Shown one piece after another: positions 4,971-50,645 of a stretch of DNA of 64,000 nt. The notes beneath the pieces were generated by a model that saw only the letters and a program-made list of their open reading frames with translations, searched no databases and was not told the origin of the DNA. The position numbers and the translations under genes were made by a program. The stretch is from Nothopassalora personata (taxonomy: Eukaryota > Ascomycota > Dothideomycetes > Mycosphaerellales > Mycosphaerellaceae), in contig CM066293.1 in assembly GCA_033816765.1 (NCBI GenBank), positions 1,550,001 to 1,614,000 of the forward strand. The letters run 5' to 3'. Within the stretch, counting starts at the first letter, position 1, and each line of letters starts with the position of its first letter.

Positions 4971-7243
4971 TTAAAACGCTCTTCCAAACTGTAGGTCCGG
5001 TAATCGCGGTTGCCGCGACTCGACTGAGGGACTTCTGCTGTGGAGACTCCTCTCCTCGTCGTGATGTGAGAAGGGCGCTGCGGCCGGCATGAGAGCTTCG
5101 TCGTCTCTGTATCGTCCAGCGGGTGAGGCGTCCCGCTCCTGCACGGGGTTGTAGCGACCTCGTGCGTCTGCGAAGGGGGAGGCGGAGACGAGAGGTGCTT
5201 TGTATGAAGTGTCTGGGAATTTCTGGACCATGGGATCCATGAGAAGGCTATTCCGTGCATGAAGGGGCGTGAGGTTATCCAGATCGCGTTCCAGCCTCTC
5301 CTGCTCCTTGCGCTTCTTTCTGTGAGGGTTCTCTTTCACGCAGGTGATAATCGCGTTGATGGCGATCAAGACGGCGAGAATGCCGGTCAAAGAAGCTTGC
5401 ACCGCGATCAGAACCACTCCAGTGACCGTCTTTGTGGTTTGCGAAATGCCAAGTTCCTCGACAAAGATCAACACCATGACGACCGATGCGACACGGACGA
5501 TCTGAATGACGATGTTGATCCATTTTCCAGATCGGCGCTGCCAGGGCCGTGCCCAGAGCAGGAGGCAAAGCATGAGAGCCTCCACGATGAGCTGTCCAGA
5601 CACCTGGATGAGACCATGTCCATTTGCGCCAGCGATGATGGCTCCTCGCGCAAACATGTAGATGATGGTAGGAATGAAGATCCACCAGTAGCTCTTCTTG
5701 TAGTTATCGTAAAAGAGCGAGTACTTGATCCACGTATCCTTGTCATCGTAGAGTTTGTCCGTCGTGCCTTCCATCTTCTTCGCAGCACGGGCTTTGCTCC
5801 AAATCTTCCACGTGAAGCCAGCCAAAACCGCCGTGAAGATGGCGAAAGTGACACCAGCAAGTACCTGAGCAGCCCAAGAATCTCCGTTCGACCATTGGTA
5901 GACACACCACAAAGTCCAGACGCCGTACAGCAGCAGCATCAAGTTCGTGATAGCTTTCGCCATGCGCCACCAGTATCGCTTGCGCCAGGACTCCATAGCT
6001 GGGGAGAGCTTGCCGAACTGGGCCCATGCTTCGAGGATGGCTTTGAAAAGCAGAATGAGAACGATGATGCCTGCAACCGCGATCGCCCATACCAAGAGAA
6101 TGGTCATGAAAGTGTTCGAGCTGGGGATTGACAGCTGTTCGGCGAAGGCGCGCAATCCGGAAACGAAGCGCTGGTCCTTGCTATCGGCAGATGAACCATG
6201 ACTCGTCGTCGAGCCGTCACCTACATCCTGCGAGGTGCCGTTGACGTCGACCGTCGCTCCGTCTCGAGCGAAGAGAAGGCTCGTAGCCGCACTCAGCGCC
6301 CTCCTGCTGACACTCGAATTCGTTCCATCGTTGTAGACCAGGGTAACATTATTCTTGAGGTACTCGTAGCTGTTTTTGGTCGTGTTGCCGCCTGTCTTGG
6401 CTCGGAAGTTATCAATCGCTGTCTGCAGCGCACCCCACTGAACCAGACCGCAGGAGAAGCCGAAGTTGGTAGTGAATGACTGGTACACTTTCGGATACTG
6501 CACACTCAACATGCCGTTGGTCGCCATCGATTGGAACCAACCAATGACCTCGCCAAAGGTTGGCGATGGTGTTGTTGCGCCCGCTCCTCCTCCCGATGCA
6601 ATCGCGCCAATAGCTGACATGGCCAAAGCTGCAGCCGCCATACCAGCGGCCGCATATTGTGCTGCCGGCAGGTTGATTGTGTGTCCATTCCCTACGCTTG
6701 ACTGTATACAGCCCAGCTCGGCTCCTGAATCGGCGCTCGTTACTTGCAGTTTGACAAGTCCATCGAGGTCGGGCACTTGGAACGCTATCGAAGGGATCTT
6801 GCTCGCGTATTCTTCGGGGACTGTCTGCACGCCTTGCGATGCGAACGTACCAGCAGGTACTGCGACTCTGTCAGCGGCCCATACTCGTCTTTAAAGGGAA
6901 CATCCTGATACGTACTTGGACACATCTGCTCCATGGCACCCTCGCTTATGCCTGTGCTATTGTCACATGGGTTGAACTCTTTGGTATAGATCTCTCGTCC
7001 ATATGCGGTAACGACCAGGTTCAATAGAACCTTCTGACTCTCCGCACTTGAGCCGGCCACGTCGAATGTGATGTGCCTGTTGGATCGGTCATACTGCACA
7101 TCGAGTGTTTTCACTGTGATGTCAGGGTCCGAAACACATGTCGAGACTCCCTTGGTGCTAAGGATATCGCCTGCCAATACGCTGACCGGCAGCGCAGCAG
7201 CAGCAAGTATAAAGGGAACAACATATGGTCGGAAAGACGGCAT
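4971..7243 (-). CDS. TRP-like ion channel of the flavin carrier (FLC) family
   Basis: Two exons on the minus strand, 7243-6916 and 6859-4971, with a 56-nt intron (donor GTACGT, acceptor CGCAG) that restores the frame at ..MCP-I-PAGTF..; 738 residues. Residues 1-22 are a signal peptide. Residues about 23-190 form the lumenal ML-like lipid-binding domain with several cysteines and N-glycosylation sites. A cluster of about eight membrane spans follows (from about residue 325, for example around FMTILLVWAIAVAGIIVLIL), and then a cytosolic tail with a basic-acidic stretch and Arg/Ser-rich repeats. Yeast FLC proteins act in ER/cell-surface FAD transport, calcium homeostasis and wall maintenance. 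The start at 7243 is chosen because it opens directly on the signal peptide. Confidence 0.88.
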
Positions 7244-24997: not shown

Positions 24998-27900
24998 TCA
25001 ACCAGGCTTGATAGCATAGACCCATCTGCCACGCAGCACACGTGTGCCAGTTGGCAGTGTTGTCTTGTCCTTGTACAGCCATGTCTCGTATTGCTCGAGA
25101 CTGGCGAATTCAGCTTCTTCGGCTGCACGCCACTCGGCGTGTTGTGGTGTTGCCATTGCGGCCTTGTGGCTCTTCGGTATGAGCACCGTTGCTGGATCTG
25201 GCCAGTCGGTTGCTGCCATGAAAGCAGTCACAGTCGCATGTGGCATCTCAGCAAGTTGCTTGCGGGTCGTCTTGCTGAGTGAGTGACACAGGGCCCTACG
25301 CTGCTTGCGGTTGGCTTCATATTGATAGCCGTTCAATGGGTCTCGAACTTCCGCAGGAGGGCGACGATTGCGCTGTGGCCGACCTGATGGCGTAGGTGGC
25401 ACAGGTTGCCGAGCTGGCTGTGCCGGAGGTGTCGTGAAGTCGTCTTCATCGTCATCCTCAACAGAAGGTCTCGGAGGTGTTGTTGGTTGCACTTCCGGAA
25501 AGTCGTCAGGCGTCTCATCTTGATAGGAGTCCACTACTTCCTGTGAAAGGTCCTCATCCGACTGCTCGAGTGGTGAGTCCGCTGGACGGTCGATGACGGT
25601 GATGTTCTTCGGTGCTGTAACACCCCCAGAATCACCACCCCCAGGAGTCACACCGCGCTCAGCACCTGCTCGCCGTAGTCCTGTCTTGCGGTTGCGCTCC
25701 ACTGGAAAGATGTCTTCTCGAGTGATGAGCTCGTCGTCTTGATCTTGCTCAGTCTCAGAGTCACCGTCTTGGGCTGCCATAGGGTCGTTGCCCTCGATGA
25801 ATTGAACGTCCTTGGTTCTGAACACTCTATGCGCCTTAGCAACATAGGCACGGTAGATGGTGCGGCTTTCGTATCCAACAAGCTTGCCCTGCAACGAGCG
25901 GGCGTCAAACTTCTCACCGCGACCGACGTTATGGTCGTACACGAAGGCGCGGCAGCCGTATGCTTTGAGGTGTGACAGGGAAGGCTTCACTGGTTGAGTG
26001 CCCTGCCAAGCGTTGATAACTTCTAGTGGTGACAGGCCCTTGATTGCTGCACTTGGTGTCAAGTTAAGAAGATAGACCGAAGCTTTCACTGCTTCTGGCC
26101 ATAGGCTAGGTGGAAGGCCAGCGTCGATGAGCAGCTTACGTGCCATGACACAAACGATGTGGTTGCTGACTTCCGCACCACCATTCTGCTCTGAAGAATG
26201 AGGTGCTGTGACTTGAAGAGCGAAGCCCTCATCGCGTGAGAGCTGCGTGAGTGAGTGTCCTCCATATTCGCCACCCCCATCTATGCGGAAGATCACAATT
26301 GCTGTGCCATATTGTGTCTTCACATGACGGTGGACCACTCGAATATGCTGCGCAGCACCGTCCTTCTGTGCGGAAGCGAATACTGTGCGTTGTAGGCTGG
26401 CCAGGCAGGTGAATAGCGTGAAGTAACGCTCCTTGCCAATGCCAAGGTTGCGGACCGTGACAACATCCACAGCAACAATATAGTATGGTGTTGTTGGCCG
26501 CACCATCGGAATGCGGTTGTAGACCTTGTGACCCATCCCCTTACGACAGGGGATGCACTCGCGTGGGTGCTTGCTGAGGTCGCTATCACTGTTGCCAACA
26601 ATGGTGATGCGCTTGTCGTTGTGAAGCTGCAGCAACTTGCGGCTGTGGATGTGTCCAAGTCGGCGGTGCCACAGGTCTCCTGTAGCAGCTGTCGATGGCT
26701 CGACCTTGGACGAAGTGAGGGCTGTCGCTGAGTCCTTCATCTTCAAGAATGGCAGTCCATTGTGGGTGTAGCAGTGTGCCACCGTACGCGCAGCAGTCCC
26801 CTTTGTGAATAGGATCTGCTCGTCGTTGCGATAATAGACACCCTTGCGGCGAAGAGCCTCTGTCGAAATCAGATTGGCTGCAAGGCCTGGTACGTACAAC
26901 ACCTGTGAGAAGCCAGTGATGCCGCATCCATACAGATCCAGTTGGACGATGCCACAAGCTGTAGCAGTGATGGTGCCACTGCCTGTCTTGATAAGAACAG
27001 TGCAGGGCCGGTAGTCCATCATATTGCTCAGCTTGTTTGTCATGTGAGAAGTGCAGCCAGAGTCCACAACCCAGTCGGTGTTGCTCTTCGCTGCAAGCAG
27101 CGCTGAGGTGTCTTGAATGATGTCGTCCTGGCCCACAGTCATATACATGCTGTGAGAGCCGTTGAATGGAGTCATCAAGTCCTCGAAGTTGGTAGCGCCG
27201 TGAGCCGCAAACTGTGCGGTCTCAGTGTGCTGTGCGTCAGTGGTGTTGTTGACTTGCTGACGCTGTTGTTGATTGCCCTGCTGCTTCTTCTTCCAGGTAG
27301 CAGGTGCAAGCTCAGGGTGTAGGTTCCAGCAACCAGCTGGTTGGTGAGTGGTCATGCCACAACCACTGCAGGGGTCGTATTGAGGCTTCTGCTGTTGGTT
27401 GTTGTTGCCACCACCATTCTGATTACCACCACGAGCGCCGTTGCCGTTGCCGCGGCCTCCACGACCTCCTCGTCCGCCGCGTCCGTTACCACGTGGTGCG
27501 CCGCCGCCGCGAGGGGTGTTGCCGTTGCCCTGTGGGTTGGCAGGGTTGGCGTTGTTTTGTTGCTTCACTGCGAGATTGGCTGACTCGGACTGTTGCGCAG
27601 TCGCCTCATCAAGCAGATCACTGATCACCTTGTCGAGTGTGATAGTGGTACTGTCCTCGATCTTTCCAGTAAGCTGCCTCATCTGTTCACGCTTTGAGGA
27701 CGCGAATGTTGGGAAGTATGGTGAGATCTGATACAGGAAGCGGAAGAGAGCTTGAGCCTTTGATATGGCTAACTCGGTGTTCTTGAGGTTGGCCAGCTTC
27801 GACTGATATTGCTGGCAGAACTTGTCAAGGTTGGAGCCACCATATGTGTGTGACTCGAAGTCCAGGTACAACGAGTACTCTTCGGACTTGCCAGTTTGAC

Positions 27901-28381
27901 CGTATGTGGACTTCAGATGGTCCCATAGGTCTTCCGGTTGTTGGTAGGCTTTGCAGTTGTCTGCAATAGACTGACTGCAGTTAGCAATAATGAGGGCGCG
28001 GGCTTGATACTTCTTTGCCTCCCATGCCTCGATACGCTCTTCGAGTTCATAGTCTTCCTCATTCTTGCGCTTCGTGGGCTTCGGCTTGAGGGCAGTCTTG
28101 TCGACAAACCCCCATAGCAGGTCACCTCGCAGGACTGACTGTAACATATCAGCCCATCTCGAGTAGTCGTCCTTGCCTTGAAGTTTGGAGACACCAGGGG
28201 TGCCGTTGTTGTTACGGCCGACCATGTTGCTAAAGCCGCGAGTTGATACAGCAGGCTTCTTGGTCTTTCGGGTAGCAGCCGACTCGGTCTGCTGTTGTTG
28301 CTGGCTCGGAGTGGCGACAGACTGCTGCGCCAGCGGTATTTCGAGTCCAGTGAGGTCAGTGTTGTTACCGTCAGTATCCAT
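24998..28381 (-). CDS. Copia Gag-protease-integrase polyprotein, truncated at the start of the RT domain
   Basis: 1,127 codons read on the minus strand. Residues 1-270 are Gag. An RGG-rich basic stretch (about 290-320) is followed by a CCHC zinc knuckle (C338-x2-C-x4-H-x4-C351). The aspartic protease motif DSG is at 440-442. A GAG-pre-integrase HRRLGH motif is near 580 and CIPCRKG follows. The integrase core has its D..D..E residues in VAVDVVT, RIDGGGEYGG and SSEQNGGAEV (about 640-740). After a Pro/Glu-rich linker, the start of the reverse transcriptase domain appears (RGRWVYAIKPG) and stops at once. The roughly 280 bases left before the LTR hold no RT or RNase H. So the copy is internally deleted and cannot copy itself unaided. 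Confidence 0.88.
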   Translation of the reverse strand: MDTDGNNTDLTGLEIPLAQQSVATPSQQQQQTESAATRKTKKPAVSTRGFSNMVGRNNNGTPGVSKLQGKDDYSRWADMLQSVLRGDLLWGFVDKTALKPKPTKRKNEEDYELEERIEAWEAKKYQARALIIANCSQSIADNCKAYQQPEDLWDHLKSTYGQTGKSEEYSLYLDFESHTYGGSNLDKFCQQYQSKLANLKNTELAISKAQALFRFLYQISPYFPTFASSKREQMRQLTGKIEDSTTITLDKVISDLLDEATAQQSESANLAVKQQNNANPANPQGNGNTPRGGGAPRGNGRGGRGGRGGRGNGNGARGGNQNGGGNNNQQQKPQYDPCSGCGMTTHQPAGCWNLHPELAPATWKKKQQGNQQQRQQVNNTTDAQHTETAQFAAHGATNFEDLMTPFNGSHSMYMTVGQDDIIQDTSALLAAKSNTDWVVDSGCTSHMTNKLSNMMDYRPCTVLIKTGSGTITATACGIVQLDLYGCGITGFSQVLYVPGLAANLISTEALRRKGVYYRNDEQILFTKGTAARTVAHCYTHNGLPFLKMKDSATALTSSKVEPSTAATGDLWHRRLGHIHSRKLLQLHNDKRITIVGNSDSDLSKHPRECIPCRKGMGHKVYNRIPMVRPTTPYYIVAVDVVTVRNLGIGKERYFTLFTCLASLQRTVFASAQKDGAAQHIRVVHRHVKTQYGTAIVIFRIDGGGEYGGHSLTQLSRDEGFALQVTAPHSSEQNGGAEVSNHIVCVMARKLLIDAGLPPSLWPEAVKASVYLLNLTPSAAIKGLSPLEVINAWQGTQPVKPSLSHLKAYGCRAFVYDHNVGRGEKFDARSLQGKLVGYESRTIYRAYVAKAHRVFRTKDVQFIEGNDPMAAQDGDSETEQDQDDELITREDIFPVERNRKTGLRRAGAERGVTPGGGDSGGVTAPKNITVIDRPADSPLEQSDEDLSQEVVDSYQDETPDDFPEVQPTTPPRPSVEDDDEDDFTTPPAQPARQPVPPTPSGRPQRNRRPPAEVRDPLNGYQYEANRKQRRALCHSLSKTTRKQLAEMPHATVTAFMAATDWPDPATVLIPKSHKAAMATPQHAEWRAAEEAEFASLEQYETWLYKDKTTLPTGTRVLRGRWVYAIKPG

Positions 28382-28594
28382 ACACTGCAGAGCACCAACT
28401 AGGTGTCACTGCGATACTTGCCGCGTTGCCCACTGGGTCGCGACTTTGTCGTTTGCTATTTGCTGCAGTCGCGTTTTGTCGCAATCACCAACCAGGCGTT
28501 GTCGACATACACGCGATCAGCAGGATCACATACACACTATCAAGTGTCTTTCGGAGGTATGCGCGCAGTTGATAAGCGCGAGGGCGTCATAACC

Positions 28595-43559: not shown

Positions 43560-43707
43560 AGCTCGCTTCGCGATACCACGATGCGTAGCCCATGTCTTAC
43601 ATTGGAAAGACTACTTCGAAAAGGGTATATGGACTAGATATTTCAATAAAAGAAGCTCGCCGCACTCTCGTAGTAGATAGATCGTAACCGACAACAAGTC
43701 TTCGTTT

Positions 43708-43892
43708 CGCTATATATAGTTTCGCGATACGTAGTCCTAGCCTATGTCTTACATCGGAAAGACTAGGGTATATAGACTAGATATTTAATAAGAGCTCGCC
43801 GCGCCTTTGTAGTAGATAGATCGTAACCGACAACAAGTCTTCCTCAGATAAAACTACCTTCCGTACCAAGAATACCTCCGACGTAAACAGCT
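43708..43892 (+). promoter_or_regulatory. Repeated promoter block of array unit 1
   Basis: This block recurs before each array gene. It has CTATATATAG (a palindrome), TCGCGATACG, a shared CTTACATCGGAAAGAC word, and a TATATAG box at 43769-43775, about 120 bp before the ATG. Its conservation between units suggests co-regulation of the copies. Confidence 0.5.
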
Positions 43893-44244
43893 ATGGAGTT
43901 CCTCTCGCTTATACTATACGCAACACTTTCTACAGCAAATAGTGGCATGTGGTGCAATGACGGCACGAGCGGTGACGGAACATGCGAATCAATTGGCGAA
44001 TTTACCTTTTGTGTAAGTACTATAAAGTATAGATAGAGACAGCGCATCTCTAGTATTATTAATACGTACGTATTCTTTATAGTGCCGATGGCAGAACTCT
44101 TCAGTCTTCCGGATCTGGAGGAATGTTTCGGAACTCACGACTGATCCGTATGGGCAAGATACGTGCGCTGTTAAAGACGATATTTACTATTCGGGTCTTA
44201 TAGGCTGTGCCGCCGCGTATGGAAATGCTACAGGCGATAACTAA
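43893..44244 (+). CDS. Small secreted cysteine-rich protein, array copy 1
   Basis: Exon 1 is 43893-44012 and exon 2 is 44083-44244, with a 70-nt intron (GTAAGT..TTATAG) between codons; 93 residues. The signal peptide is about residues 1-15 (MEFLSLILYATLSTA). The mature chain of about 78 residues has six cysteines at 21, 31, 40, 41, 68 and 82. The pattern is C-x9-C-x8-CC-x26-C-x13-C, and the intron lies exactly between the two adjacent cysteines. One N-glycosylation site lies in exon 2 (NSS) and another in NVS. The even number of cysteines suggests three disulfides. This is a candidate effector or surface-defence protein; no known family recognised, so function is unknown. Confidence 0.8.
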
Positions 44245-44449
44245 GATACTATAGAAGTGCGTTTCGCTATATATAGTCTCGCGATACGTAGTCCTAGCCT
44301 ATGTCTTACATCGGAAAGACTAGGGTATATAGACTAGATATTTAATAAGAGCTCGCCGCGCCTTTGTAGTAGATAGATCGTAACCGACAACAAGTCTTCC
44401 TCCGATAAAACTACCTTCCGTACCAAGAATACCTCCGACGTAAACAGCT

Positions 44450-44798
44450 ATGGAGTTCCTCTCGCTTATACTATACGCAACACTTTCTACAGCAAGTGGC
44501 ATGTGGTGCAATAACGGCACGAGCGGTGACGGATCATGCGAATCAATTGGCGAATTTACCTTTTGTGTAAGTACTATAAAGTATAGATAGAGACAGCGCA
44601 TCTCTAGTATTATTAATACGTACGTATTCTTTATAGTGCCGATGGCAGAACTCTTCAGTCTTCCGGATCTGGAGGAATGTTTCGGAACTCACGACTGATC
44701 AGTATGGGCAAGATATCTGCGGTGTTGAAGACGCTCATTACAATTGGGGTCTTATAGGCTGTGCCGCCGCGTATGGAAATGCTACAGGCGATAACTAA
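44450..44798 (+). CDS. Small secreted cysteine-rich protein, array copy 2
   Basis: Exons 44450-44566 and 44637-44798 with a 70-nt intron; 92 residues. It has the same signal peptide, six cysteines and CC-splitting intron as copy 1, but lacks one Asn codon after the signal peptide. In exon 2 it differs from copy 1 at eight codons clustered between the CC pair and the last cysteine (for example Pro to Gln, Thr to Ile, Lys to Glu, Ser to Trp). None of these differences is silent. Reading frame and splice signals are intact. Confidence 0.8.
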
Positions 44799-44998
44799 GA
44801 TAGAAGTGCGTTTCGCTATATATAGTCTCGCGATACGTAGTCCTAGCCTATGTCTTACATCGGAAAGACTAGGGTATATAGACTAGATATTTAATAAGAG
44901 CTCGCCGCGCCTTTGTAGTAGATAGATCGTAACCGACAACAAGTCTTCCTCAGATAAAACTACCTTCCGTACCAAGAATACCTCCGACGTAAACAGCT

Positions 44999-45347
44999 AT
45001 GGAGTTCCTCTCGCTTATACTATACGCAACACTTTCTACAGCAAGTGGCATGTGGTGCAATGACGGCACGAGCGGTGACGGAACATGCGAATCAATTGGC
45101 GAATTTACCTTTTGTGTAAGTACTATAAAGTATAGATAGAGACAGCGCATCTCTAGTATTATTAATACGTACGTATTCTTTATAGTGCCGATGGCAGAAC
45201 TCTTCAGTCTTCCGGATCTGGAGGAATGTTTCGGAACTCACGACTGATCCGTATGGGCAAGATACGTGCGCTGTTAAAGACGATATTTACTATTCGGGTC
45301 TTATAGGCTGTGCCGCCGCGTATGGAAATGCTACAGGCGATAACTAA
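44999..45347 (+). CDS. Small secreted cysteine-rich protein, array copy 3
   Basis: Exons 44999-45115 and 45186-45347; 92 residues. Exon 2 is identical to that of copy 1. Exon 1 differs from copy 1 only by lacking the three-base Asn codon. This suggests recent duplication or gene conversion between copies 1 and 3 across the diverged copy 2. Confidence 0.8.
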
Positions 45348-45351
45348 GATA

Positions 45352-45480
45352 GAAGTGCGTTTCGCTATATATAGTCTCGCGATACGTAGTCCTAGCCTGT
45401 GTCTCACATCGGAAACAGAAGTGCGTTTCGCTATATATAGTCTCGCGATACGTAGTCCTAGCCTGTGTCTCACATCGGAA
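45352..45480. repeat. Direct duplication of a ~63-bp promoter segment before copy 4
   Basis: The block that runs from GAAGTGCGTTTCGC to CACATCGGAAA occurs twice head to tail here and once before the other units. This explains the larger 607-bp spacing to copy 4. Confidence 0.85.
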
Positions 45481-45605
45481 AGGCTACTTCGTTACGGGCA
45501 TATAGACTAGAATATATAACAGCTCGCCGCACCCTTCTAGTAGATACATCGTAACCGATAAAAAGTCTACCTTCAATAGCAAGACTACCTCCGTTGTAAA
45601 CAGCT

Positions 45606-45937
45606 ATGGAGTTCCTCTCGCTTGTACTATACGCAACACTTTCTACAGCAATTGGCATGTACTGCAATGACGGCACGAGCGGTAACGGAACATGCGAGGA
45701 CAAGGGCGAATATACCTTTTGTGTAAGTACTATAGAGGATTTCTATGTATACACGAGCATTTACTAGTATCGCTAATACGTACGTATTCTCTATAGTGCC
45801 AATGGGAGAACTCTACAACCTACCAGACCTGGAGGAATGTTACGGGCTACACGTCTGATCAGTATGGGAGCGATACGTGCGGTGATGATGGCCTCGATGT
45901 TGAGGATTATAGATTCATAGGCTGTGCCGCCGCGTAA
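45606..45937 (+). CDS. Small secreted cysteine-rich protein, array copy 4 (subtype 2, shorter C-terminus)
   Basis: Exons 45606-45722 and 45797-45937 with a 74-nt intron; 85 residues. Signal peptide and all six cysteines are kept (..MYCNDGTSG.., ..TFC|CQWENS.., ..DTCGDDG.., ..IGCAAA). The codon that is Tyr in copies 1-3 right after GCAAA is TAA here, so the last Tyr-Gly-Asn-rich residues are lost. The residues between cysteines 4 and 6 differ strongly from copies 1-3. Confidence 0.75.
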
Positions 45938-46153
45938 GGAAATACTTTAGGCGGTATCTAAGATAGAAGTGCGTTTCGCTATATATAGTCTCGCGATACG
46001 TAGTCCTAGCCTGTGTCTCACATCGGAAAGGCTACTTCGTTACGGGCATATAGACTAGAATATATAACAGCTCGCCGCACCCTTCTAGTAGATACATCGT
46101 AACCGATAAAAAGTCTACCTTCAATAGCAAGACTACCTCCGTTGTAAACAGCT

Positions 46154-46485
46154 ATGGAGTTCCTCTCGCTTGTACTATACGCAACACTTTCTACAGCAAT
46201 TGGCATGTAGTGCAATAACGGCACGAGCGGTGACGGAACATGCGAGGACAAGGGCGAACGTACCTTTTGTGTAAGTACTATAGAGGATTTCTATGTATAC
46301 ACGAGCATTTCCTAGTATCGCTAATACGTACGTATTCTCTATAGTGCCAATGGGAGGAGGACTCTATAATCTACCCGACCTGGAGGAATGTTTCGGAACT
46401 CACGAATAATCAGCATGGAGGAAATACGTGCGGTGAAACTAGCTATAATAATCTTCATGGTTATGTAGGCTGTGCCGCCGCGTAA
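46154..46485 (+). pseudogene. Small secreted cysteine-rich protein, array copy 5, early stop
   Basis: Exons 46154-46270 and 46345-46485, subtype 2. Splice sites and six cysteine codons remain, but codon 19, Tyr or Trp in the other copies, is TAG, so the product would end just after the signal peptide. Exon 2 has its own set of changes relative to copy 4 and the same early TAA end. Recently lost copy. Confidence 0.75.
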
Positions 46486-46697
46486 GGGAGTACGTCAGAC
46501 GGGATGCTATACTCGCTACAAGAAGGCTGGAGATATACCGACGTCCAAGACGGAAGTGCGTTTCGCCATATATAATAGAGTCTAAGTGCGTTTCGCGATA
46601 CGTAGCCGATGTTTTACATTAGAAAGACCGCGCCCTTCTAGTAGACAGATCGTAATTAACGACAAGACTACCTCTACCTTCGACGCAAATAAAAGCG

Positions 46698-46993
46698 ATG
46701 GAATTCCTCTCGCTTCTACTACACGTAACACGTTCTACAGCATATGGCATGTGGTGCGATAGCGCCTCGAGCGGTGACGGATCATGCGAGGCGAATGTCG
46801 ACCATGCCTATTGTGTAAGTACTACAAAGGATATACATAGAGACAGCGCATCTCTGGTACTCCTTGGCGAGAGGTCCCTATATATACACGAGCATTTCCT
46901 AGTATCACTAATACGTCTTCTCTATAGTGCCTAGCTAAGAACAGTTCAATCTACCAAACCTGGGGGGATGTTACGTATGGAGCGTATACTTAG
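46698..46993 (+). pseudogene. Small secreted cysteine-rich protein, array copy 6, diverged and truncated
   Basis: Exon 1 is 46698-46814 (MEFLSLLLHVTRSTAYG start, C-x9-C spacing kept) and exon 2 starts at 46928 after a 113-nt intron enlarged by about 40 bases. Exon 2 reaches TAG at 46991-46993 after 21 codons, before cysteines 5 and 6, although text resembling the rest follows. A 60-residue product with four cysteines would result, so it is probably inactive. Confidence 0.6.
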
Positions 46994-47249
46994 GATGGGA
47001 GCCCCTACTGCGATGGTAAAGCACAGCGAGAGAATGGGGAATATAAATTACTGTGCTGTGCGTGAGGAAATACGTCAGGCGGTTTATCGTAGATGGGTAA
47101 CAGCGCAGGCGCAAATTGGGAGTTACAGCAACCCTGCCCTTGCTGCATTTACAACATCCTCCCGTTGACAGCTTTTTCGCGTCAAATCCCATTTCGGCCC
47201 CCAGGGTAGCACTGGTGGCCACACGTCCCGTCACTAAATAGTTTCAGGA
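46994..47249. other. Spacer after the array
   Basis: Decayed tail of unit 6 and unassigned sequence. Confidence 0.4.
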
Positions 47250-47615
47250 GAGTCGGCTTATACGAGTCAGCTGACTACTATACATAACTCATCGGTCGAA
47301 GGTATCCCTCTCTTGTTGGCGCGAGCCTGCACAGCAAGGAATGGCGATCTCTACGGGCCACCTCTTTCAGCATCATCTTCGAATGAGGGCGTCGCGGCAC
47401 CTCTTTACAACTCTCCTGACCATACCTGGAGGACGCATGCCGATGACTTCACTGACCTAAACTCCGGCGACTACCACGTCGGAGCTCGACGACTCAAGCA
47501 GTGTCTCCCACAAAATGTATGCTGCGAGAGCTGTGGTCAGTGCGAGGACTACTCGAGAATTTTTGGGGACTGTATAACTTGTAGGAACAAGGATATGTTG
47601 TGCTGGGCGTGGTGA
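47250..47615 (+). CDS. Possible cysteine-rich small protein fragment
   Basis: An open frame follows a TTTCAG acceptor-like site near 47248 and ends at TGA 47613-47615. The last 37 residues hold eight cysteines (CLPQNVCCESCGQC, then CITCRNKDMLCW). The in-frame start is not ATG, so if real this is a second exon whose first exon I cannot place. It may be unrelated to the array. Confidence 0.25.
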   Translation, partial: ESAYTSQLTTIHNSSVEGIPLLLARACTARNGDLYGPPLSASSSNEGVAAPLYNSPDHTWRTHADDFTDLNSGDYHVGARRLKQCLPQNVCCESCGQCEDYSRIFGDCITCRNKDMLCWAW

Positions 47616-48018: not shown

Positions 48019-48903
48019 TCAGAAATAGGTAGGCGTCCTGCGAGCCAGATAGCCCAAGAACTGCCCGGTCCGTTGGCCCTCACTATTGACCCAGACTACG
48101 GTCGTTCGAGTACGCAGGTACGGACGAATCCCAGCGCGTCCATCATCTGGAGAGAGCGAAACACGTTTCCCGACTAAAGCCTGAACGCGGACCTCCGTTT
48201 TGGCGTTGATCCATCTCAACGGCTCGCCGACGTCACACATCAAAGGACAGAAAGAAGCGCCTCTGCGGAGACCTATGCTTCTGTCTCGGCGATACGCTGT
48301 TTCGATTGCAGTCTCCTGAGGTAGACCCACATCGCCAGGCACCAGACATCGGCGGATGTATGGCTTGTGCTGTATCTTGATCCGCGCCCATTGTTCCTTG
48401 TCGGCTGACATTGTGCGTTTGCCGTACAGCGCTTCAGCTGCTTCGTGATACAGCTGCCAGCAGACTCGGAGGAGCGGCGGAGAGACCTTGCTCCTCTTAC
48501 CTCTATCTGGGCCGAACGTGAGGATGGGAGGGACGTTGTCGAAGATGAATCGATGATCATATCTCGAAGTTCCCGTGGACGGCTTAGTAGGCGGGAGGCA
48601 GCGGTGCGATCCTTGATGAGGTATGGCATGTATGGTAACAAGGTGTGTTGGAGGTCGTGGCGGAAGTTGCCGGGAGGATGTTCGAGTTGCTTGATGAGCA
48701 CTGGTACGTTTGCCACCAGCCAATATCCAGGCTTGTTCAGCAACTTCTTGCGAATGCTGGTGCTCGGAATGTTCTCGAGTAGCGACTTCATCTCTTGGTC
48801 ACTTGGAAGTGCCTGCGATGGTAGCGATTCTGCTTCAATGTCAGCGCTCTCACAGTGTTGTGTAGAGAAACTTGCCGTCTGCTTTCTTCTTGCGAGGGGC
48901 CAT
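48019..48903 (-). pseudogene. 2EXR-like orphan gene, broken copy 1
   Basis: ATG at 48903 (MAPRKKKADG). The frame shifts within about 20 codons and then reads ALPSDQEMKSLLENIPSTSI and LLPYMPYLIKDRTAAS up to RPRELRDMIID. It shifts again by one base near 48560 into FDNVPPILTFG..LLRVCWQLYHEAAEALYGKRTM, ending at 48019. The same block order exists in the neighbour at 49181-49930 (shared PYLxKDRT, RELRD and LLRVCWQL.HE). Two independent frame changes mark it as a pseudogene. Confidence 0.5.
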
Positions 48904-49180
48904 CTCAGGCTAAGTAGTTGGTGATTGCGTAGTTGCTGATAGTGATGGTCGCGAACTTGAGTGGAAAGTGGTGGATTTATGTGCGGTCTTAGTGCTTCTT
49001 CGAAGAGAGAAGACCGGAGTCGGGTGGGGCAACGTTGCGATCAAGTGACAGACTAGCCTGTGCTAATCGAGTGAATGGCAACATAAAAAGTTTGGGCCGA
49101 GTCTCGCTATTCTGACAACGCATGCGGCTGCAACCCAATAGTGAGCTCTTAAATAAACTTCTTCGCACAAGCGAAGGATA
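48904..49180. other. Spacer between the two 2EXR-like copies
   Basis: Nothing recognised. Confidence 0.4.
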
Positions 49181-49930
49181 TCAATGTAAAACAAGCGGTC
49201 TCATGTGAGTGCCTGTGTCGGTGCTTTTTTGTTCACCAAAGCCCCGGGAATCCCGCAATGTGATCGAGCCTCTCTCGCCCTTGACGTTCACCCACGGCAC
49301 CTCCAATGCGCTGATCCAGTGCATCGACATGATGTCCCGACAGAAGACGGTACCCATCTCCAACCCGTACTTGGGATCCCAGTAAGCGGCCGTATCCTTT
49401 GCAGTCTCGCCGTCGATGGGCCAAAGGTTATAAGCACTGAGGAGCACTCGGCTCAAGACCTGCTTGTGCTGGAATTTGGTGTTGAAGGCGTTGACATCGA
49501 TGAAGAAGATGGTCTTGGCTTTGTAGAGAGGCTCGATTGTCTCATGACACAGCTGCCAGCAGACACGAAGCAATGACAAGGAATGCTTTGGCTTGTGGTT
49601 ACCGAGGAACAGTACTTCCGGGACATGCTCTATGGCGAAGCCAAAGACGATGTCTCGCAGCTCGCGAGGAAGACGAGCAGCGCCGGCTCTTTGGTTCGGT
49701 CCTTGGTCAGGTAGGGCATGAAAGGCAGAAGTTTCTCTTGGATCACACGGTGGCTGTGCGCTGGATGATTCTGCAGTATCTTGAGGATCTGTCCGGTGTT
49801 GCGGGATGCTTTGATAAGTTTGTATACGATCTTCCGGCGAATACTGGTCGGCGCTTCTTGGAATAGCTTCAGCATCTGGGGATAGTCTGCGAGGACTTGC
49901 GATGGTGGTTGGTCTGATGGTTGTTAGCGC
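49181..49930 (-). pseudogene. 2EXR-like orphan gene, broken copy 2
   Basis: The N-terminal part (QVLADYPQMLKLFQEAPTSI and LLPFMPYLTKDRTKEPA) is in one frame. After a one-base shift near 49690 the domain continues as RLPRELRDIVFGFAIEHVPE, SLLRVCWQLCHETIEPLYKA and on to the stop at 49181. The shift site differs from that of copy 1, so the two copies decayed independently after a tandem duplication. Confidence 0.5.
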
Positions 49931-50645
49931 TGGTTGCACTCTTGAGAGGCACGCATAGCAGGTATCTGGGTCTCAGTGGCCGCCATCTTGATTCAGCTAG
50001 AGCGTCTGTGGTGGAGCTTTCGTAGTTGAAGTCAAATGGCTGGTGCACACGGAGAACTGATAGGAGGTCTGAATCTGTTAAGTATGTAGGCACGAGTTCG
50101 GACTCAGATCTTGCTAAATACTGGTGTACCGGAGGGGTTTCACATGCCGTCAGCAGTCTTCATTCTGTTCGATTGTTTCCGGCACATGCATCTGAAATCC
50201 TCACCGTGGGAGCCAGGATGCAGTGCCACGTGGCCAAATTGACCGAAGAATATGGTCTTGCTTCAATTGATCAACGACACGACTGTTCCGCGCGTGGCAC
50301 ACACTGCATTTGCATGTACCTTGCTGTGACCTGGGTATCCTGTATTTGCAAGGCTTGAAAATGCAACATCGATGATCGATATCTTTGTGATATCGTCTCG
50401 CGGTTTCAATGCTCGGCAACTCATTCGATGACGGGATGGGGTGATGTGCATGTGAAAGAAGACGTGAAGTGAAGGCGACAAGTGAAGGCGCCATGCGGCA
50501 AGGTTAAACCTCGGGCGATTGCCTGATGACATCCAATGGGCATTACAATCCAACACAGTCAAAGGAACATCCCAAAGCACAAACAAATCAAGATCCCCAC
50601 CAATCCTCCACGATCACACCTCCTACCTGACACAACACCGCCACC
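49931..50645. other. Intergenic
   Basis: No gene supported. The right end is the NEDD8 promoter. Confidence 0.5.

Follow-up and report, generated by a model that had tools for sequence, protein, structure and literature searches.

Effector families usually lose recognisable sequence fast. Among described fungal systems, leakage of repeat-induced point mutation (RIP) and a compartmented genome are reported for Cladosporium fulvum, whose Race 5 assembly measures 67.2 Mb with a guanine-plus-cytosine (GC) content of 48.9% (PMC9453070), and eight candidate effectors of wheat blast are annotated with the domain DUF6413 (Pfam PF19951; PMC12999787). Here, we analysed a stretch of 64,000 nucleotides of Nothopassalora personata (contig CM066293.1, positions 1,550,001 to 1,614,000; hereafter the window), which carries a tandem array of six small cysteine-rich gene units belonging to a genome-wide family, many of whose members are preceded by a shared short DNA element. 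We assign a probability of roughly 60% to the reading that this family of a Dothistroma-related fungus evolves by birth and death and encodes small, disulfide-rich proteins that are probably secreted and most likely of the apoplastic effector type. The proteins most likely act extracellularly, on a host or on a competing microbe.

The array consists of six two-exon units arranged head-to-tail on the plus strand at 43,893-47,065. Repeat analysis gave unit-to-unit spacings of 554, 549, 607, 548 and 544 bp, confirming the tandem, same-strand arrangement at 544-607 bp that had been recorded in the initial annotation. The start codons of copies 1-6 lie at 43893, 44450, 44999, 45606, 46154 and 46698. 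In all six units, the ATG is followed by a hydrophobic start, exon 1 ends with TGT and exon 2 begins with TGC; the GTAAGT..AG intron (70, 70, 70, 74, 74 and 113 nt in copies 1-6, respectively) thus falls within the adjacent cysteine pair (CC), and the two-exon structure, GTAAGT intron and leader-like start proposed earlier hold throughout the array. The features of the array, with the shared elements located by an exact-element genome scan, are as follows.

43586..43703, plus strand: upstream block, a partial copy of the promoter region without a gene of its own (repeat families D8/D9, DNA match)
43793..43805, plus strand: shared element AGCTCGCCGCGCC, copy 1
43893..44012, plus strand: copy 1 exon 1, with the leader and cysteines C1-C3
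44013..44082, plus strand: copy 1 intron, 70 nt
44083..44244, plus strand: copy 1 exon 2, with cysteines C4-C6; open, product of 93 residues
44350..44362, plus strand: shared element, copy 2
44450..44566, plus strand: copy 2 exon 1
44637..44798, plus strand: copy 2 exon 2; open, product of 92 residues
44899..44911, plus strand: shared element, copy 3
44999..45115, plus strand: copy 3 exon 1
45186..45347, plus strand: copy 3 exon 2, same sequence as copy 1 exon 2; open, product of 92 residues
45351..45481, plus strand: tandemly doubled upstream piece of 66 bp
45521..45533, plus strand: shared element, A variant, copy 4
45606..45722, plus strand: copy 4 exon 1
45797..45937, plus strand: copy 4 exon 2; open, product of 85 residues
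46069..46081, plus strand: shared element, A variant, copy 5
46154..46270, plus strand: copy 5 exon 1, broken by TAG at 46208-46210
46345..46485, plus strand: copy 5 exon 2
46698..46814, plus strand: copy 6 exon 1
46928..47065, plus strand: copy 6 exon 2, broken by TAG at 46991-46993

The cysteine pattern C-x9-C-x8-CC-x26-C-x13-C was matched exactly by copies 1-3, as previously claimed, and copy 4 retains all six cysteines with a final gap of 14 instead of 13. The earlier count of six genes stands for the units and falls to four for open frames, as copies 5 and 6 carry in-frame TAG codons in exon 1 and exon 2, respectively. The array end formerly placed at 46993 was found to be this internal stop of copy 6, beyond which the frame continues to 47065. 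Copies 1-3 run eight residues beyond the stop of copies 4 and 5, reading GCGTAT where the latter read GCGTAA. The GC content of the array is 0.44 versus 0.50-0.57 in 2-kb windows free of it, which bears out the A+T-richer setting described before, and the longest ATG-started frame within the array is a 93-residue antisense one, in keeping with the remark that opposite-strand frames are longer. Because their exons are short, such genes are easily overlooked by annotation.

To determine the extent of the family, the assembly (54.5 Mb in 40 contigs, with the window at C7:1550001-1614000 and loci named contig:position) was searched with one DNA unit and three proteins and scanned for the exact element, and each locus was read. 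The genome search scores its best candidates only, and the model-search scripts imposed the splice pattern with the intron between the CC codons. At least 39 loci were obtained, the counts being lower bounds: 24 are open (4 in the array and 20 dispersed) and 15 are not (2 in the array and 13 dispersed), owing to stops, a frameshift, a non-ATG start or the lack of a splice model. The weakly matching C9:1527k and C7:1735k do not enter the count, and two further genome searches with divergent members revealed no additional locus. The array gene models are more than chance, since 20 dispersed loci have this two-exon frame open as well. Further small clusters occur at C8:66.3-66.9 kb, C2:2376.7-2384 kb, C3:848 kb and C4:4257-4262 kb.

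Twenty-two open members were aligned (alignment A2), and two other open members (C2:1652k and C5:5604k) were read outside it. Within A2, the initial methionine, the six cysteines, one glycine, the glutamate after the second cysteine and the alanine after the sixth are invariant (22/22). The two members outside the alignment keep the CC pair and the final cysteine-alanine, and one of them has proline for the glutamate after the second cysteine and x7 for x8. Extra cysteines were observed, one between the fourth and fifth in C8:478336 and in C4:4257567, and extra ones in C2:1652k. In that last open member (C2:1652100-1652620, minus strand), CTC repeats oddly stretch the leader into a long leucine run after a histidine run. 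Separately, C5:3756570 and C5:5023110 hold the same broken family member, offset by one base, a duplication within contig 5, and identical coding-like sequence is found at C5:5018120 (minus strand) and C35:90, the small contig C35 having a segment in common with C5.

The conservation of these frames bears on whether the array is a transposon-like repeat with fortuitous open frames, a reading that we regard as highly improbable. Matches on several contigs, some of them to upstream DNA only, together with leader-like loci bearing other chains, would fit such a repeat, but no ATG-started frame in the array exceeds 93 residues, and the frame and cysteine pattern are conserved across the 22 aligned members, of which the dispersed ones are only 31-48% identical to copy 1. 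The sequence is thus found genome-wide with its frames conserved, unlike the genome-wide repeat without conserved reading frames that had been envisaged as the refuting case.

A different view of the same loci is that an old secreted family is decaying under RIP, with the open frames as leftovers that have no current function. In its favour, 15 of the 39 loci are interrupted by a stop or frameshift or are without an ATG or a splice model, copies 1-3 have lost their stop codon, and the RIP indices of the non-coding DNA of the array are strong (TpA/ApT of 1.65 and CpA index of 0.40). The coding DNA of copies 1-4, however, is not RIP-like (0.81 and 1.14), and the flanks of the array are ordinary (0.68-0.75 and 1.18). 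Coding DNA has therefore been spared where non-coding DNA was scarred, indicating that the frames look maintained. Furthermore, 24 frames are open with the six cysteines kept despite deep divergence, and open copies 1-3 were recently amplified, copies 1 and 3 being separated by a single difference over 539 aligned bases and by a 3-base gap in exon 1. We consequently judge decay without function to be improbable. RIP-type scarring does mark at least one duplicated member elsewhere in the family: between the open C8:478k and the broken C1:5684k, 69 differences were counted over 870 bp, of which 52 are RIP-type changes in the direction of the broken copy and 2 run in reverse. RIP as the source of the differences between open array copies was rejected, few changes there being of RIP type.

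The 12-base element GCTCGCCGC(G/A)CC was scored in the 200 bp 5' of the start, or in the 119-125 bp available at 4 loci with truncated sequence. With at most two mismatches, it precedes the start in 24 of 37 loci, compared with 0.8% when the bases of each locus were shuffled 200 times, and in 18 of 30 after the array and the locus that the element itself had revealed were dropped. The distance from element to start ranges from 44 to 139 bp, with 69 as the commonest value, and TATA(T/A) lies exactly 25 bases 5' of the element in 8 of the 37 loci and 26 bases in one, a position that suggests the transcription start region. The best element copy in the 200 bp before copy 6 has five mismatches and that of C2:1652k three; C5:5604k is outside the 37 loci scored.

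The exact 13-mer AGCTCGCCGCRCC occurs at 19 sites in 54.5 Mb versus 1 for the reversed control. Five of these sites are in the array and seven lie upstream of six other members (the C9 member having two); three stand before a leader of the family type that leads into a stop or into a chain lacking the cysteine frame, and the remaining four are in unrelated sequence, two of them being copies of one sequence. One open member, C1:2599808, was revealed by the 13-mer scan and is absent from the first three protein searches, being within reach of a later protein search with a divergent member. A short DNA element before many genes can therefore reveal members that protein search can miss, and it provides a direct route to a family inventory and to predictions of co-regulation, while gain, exchange and loss by RIP can be followed within a single genome. 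The promoter-leader cassette was also seen before chains without the family cysteine frame at C4:3299529 and C6:3431626, with a broken leader at C11:810501. At one of the three 13-mer sites with a family-type leader, the frame that follows is rich in lysine, spans about 90 residues and has no cysteine pattern.

The distribution of differences between copies was then compared along the unit. Copies 4 and 5 differ at 0 of 180 upstream positions, 0 of 45 in the leader, 5 of 72 in the rest of exon 1, 1 of 74 in the intron and 34 of 138 in exon 2; with other bounds, the contrast is 12/391 versus 40/135 (Fisher P = 2.7e-16). Of 549 positions, 14 distinguish copies 2 and 3, and 10 of these fall inside 46 nt of exon 2, a clustering equalled in 0 of 100,000 random placements, and the clustered differences comprise 9.5 non-synonymous versus 0.5 synonymous changes. 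Among dispersed members, 15 of the 18 open genes then modelled were used, three being dropped because their donor was outside the script pattern. Identity above shuffle in these 15 was 0.13-0.17 at the intron ends, 0.16 in the leader, 0.14 in the rest of exon 1 and 0.05 in exon 2. On these alignments, the upstream part is fixed within array-copy pairs and, the element excepted, is not fixed among dispersed members. The pattern in some copies suggests that the switch region, leader and intron stay constant while the secreted part changes, as in arms-race proteins. In the introns, a CTRAY branch-like site lies 20-27 nt 5' of the acceptor in 15 of the 19 examined; copies 1-3 have TTAAT (introns 44013-44082, 44567-44636 and 45116-45185) and copies 4-6 CTAAT, and splicing efficiency may differ between these two groups.

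In the birth-and-death reading, each gene would be a self-contained expression cassette of TATA, start-proximal element, leader and intron. Tandem copies would arise by unequal crossing-over, exon 2 would acquire new sequence by recombination or conversion, and other copies would be lost to RIP or to stop mutations. The protein would be exported and would form three disulfides, for which the C-C-CC-C-C order hints at a possible cystine knot, and the distal part of the protein would face a changing partner. More tentatively, and as a possibility that we do not favour, the family may work as a dispersed secreted-protein factory, in which conversion and selection would fix the cassette (TATA, 12-mer, leader and CC intron), recombination would swap or diversify exon 2 (C4-C6), and RIP would prune.

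Several observations weigh against the birth-and-death effector reading. Secretion, splicing, expression, disulfides and function are all predicted from sequence; the position of the intron between cysteine codons was a condition of the model search; and the lifestyle is deduced from the relatives of one protein. Near their start, the array leaders are devoid of basic residues (charge of -1), 13 of 37 loci have no close copy of the element, and CTRAY is missing from 4 of the 19 introns examined, namely from those in copies 1-3 and in C6:2669491. Conservation of the 60 bases 5' of the ATG in the dispersed genes is 0.07 above shuffle, barely over the 0.05 of exon 2. The all-non-synonymous outcome between copies 2 and 3 has P ~0.09 under neutrality. 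Moreover, 6.5 of 27.5 synonymous sites have changed in exon 2 between copies 4 and 5. Exchange or conversion must therefore account for much of this divergence, a swapped exon 2 or a homogenised 5' part being favoured over mere selection on point changes, and no donor sequence for an exon 2 exchange in these copies was found.

The placement of the fungus relies on a TRP/FLC-type protein of the window (4974-6890), which shows 89% identity to a protein of Dothistroma septosporum and 73% to one of Zasmidium cellare, with a top match of 93%; the fungus is accordingly taken to lie near Dothistroma, a member of the Mycosphaerellaceae, and to be related to a pine-needle pathogen. A search for rDNA found none. 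Elsewhere in the window, an open frame just 3' of the array (47280-47615, plus strand) ends in closely spaced cysteines (..QCLPQNVCCESCGQC..CITC..LCWAW), has only a weak Pfam match (Agouti, E = 0.13) and occurs once in the genome. Two related-looking frames at 48273-49972 (minus strand) each contain LLP(Y/F)MPYL(I/T)KDRT, with a weak DUF7730 match there, and a Copia-type retrotransposon gag-pol frame of 1135 residues lies at 25001-28405 (minus strand).

The initial annotation had recognised no described family. This holds at database cut-offs and misses a recurrent sub-threshold link to DUF6413, which was matched (E up to 1) by 11 of 22 members versus 0 of 22 cysteine-preserving shuffles; the 22 members are not independent, four being array copies, and C2:1652k and C5:5604k were outside the scan. 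The best of the 22 reached 19.1 bits (E = 0.0024), below the curated cut-off of 28.1 bits, and copy 4 aligned to positions 8-74 of the 75 in the profile. One shuffled sequence matched Hydrophobin_2 at E = 0.00083, so a single weak match means little and recurrence is what counts. DUF6413 is therefore likely a distant relative by profile comparison, and membership is not claimed. An exon-by-exon genome search with DUF6413 gave no match in this genome or in any of 14 controls, and so carries no weight. In a protein database that includes Dothistroma, Zasmidium, Cercospora and other relatives, alignment A1 (18 members) yielded 117 word-sharing candidates, none at E <=0.01, in a search of limited sensitivity. 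The member C8:66946, which has at least two words in common with most of its kin, had three in common with no database protein. In the PDB, copy 3 gave two chance-level matches only (E = 0.39 and 0.56) and the A1 and A2 profiles none, and no title or abstract opening describing the family was found in the literature, a weak negative for a family that cannot be looked up by name.

The cysteine order C-C-CC-C-C (22/22) is that of the inhibitor cystine knot (knottin), a common order and hence weak evidence. Hydrophobins have eight cysteines in the order C-CC-C-C-CC-C; they were rejected as candidates given the C-C-CC-C-C order, with no hydrophobin model among the six Pfam families found for the 22 members. 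The aligned members show a hydrophobic N-terminal start, judged by eye, and the mature chain is acidic in 21 of 22, with a mean net charge of -4.3. PAF/AFP-type antifungal proteins have a basic mature chain, and this identity was likewise rejected on the acidic charge.

These properties also bear on the rather unlikely alternative that the proteins are secreted against other microbes, as antifungal, antibacterial or killer-like agents, and are not effectors directed at a plant. Their small size, leader, cysteine richness, copy number and variability would suit that role, and some knottin toxins have the same C-C-CC-C-C order; the acidic chains, however, are unlike the cationic PAF/AFP kind, and no killer or antimicrobial family was matched in Pfam, the PDB or the protein database. 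The charge thus lowers the cationic antifungal reading, and antagonism is still compatible with it.

Compared with known systems, the family resembles conotoxin-type superfamilies, in the way it would work only, in that the leader and the non-coding parts are conserved, the mature part changes fast and the cysteine order is C-C-CC-C-C. It differs from them in being fungal and in its far longer cysteine gaps (26 and 13 in copies 1-3). It also resembles the small secreted cysteine-rich effectors of Dothideomycetes, in size, leader-like start, cysteine richness and an A+T-richer, RIP-scarred setting. Unlike generic effectors of that class, this family, as known here from its DNA, is marked by a start-proximal element and by an intron inside the CC pair.

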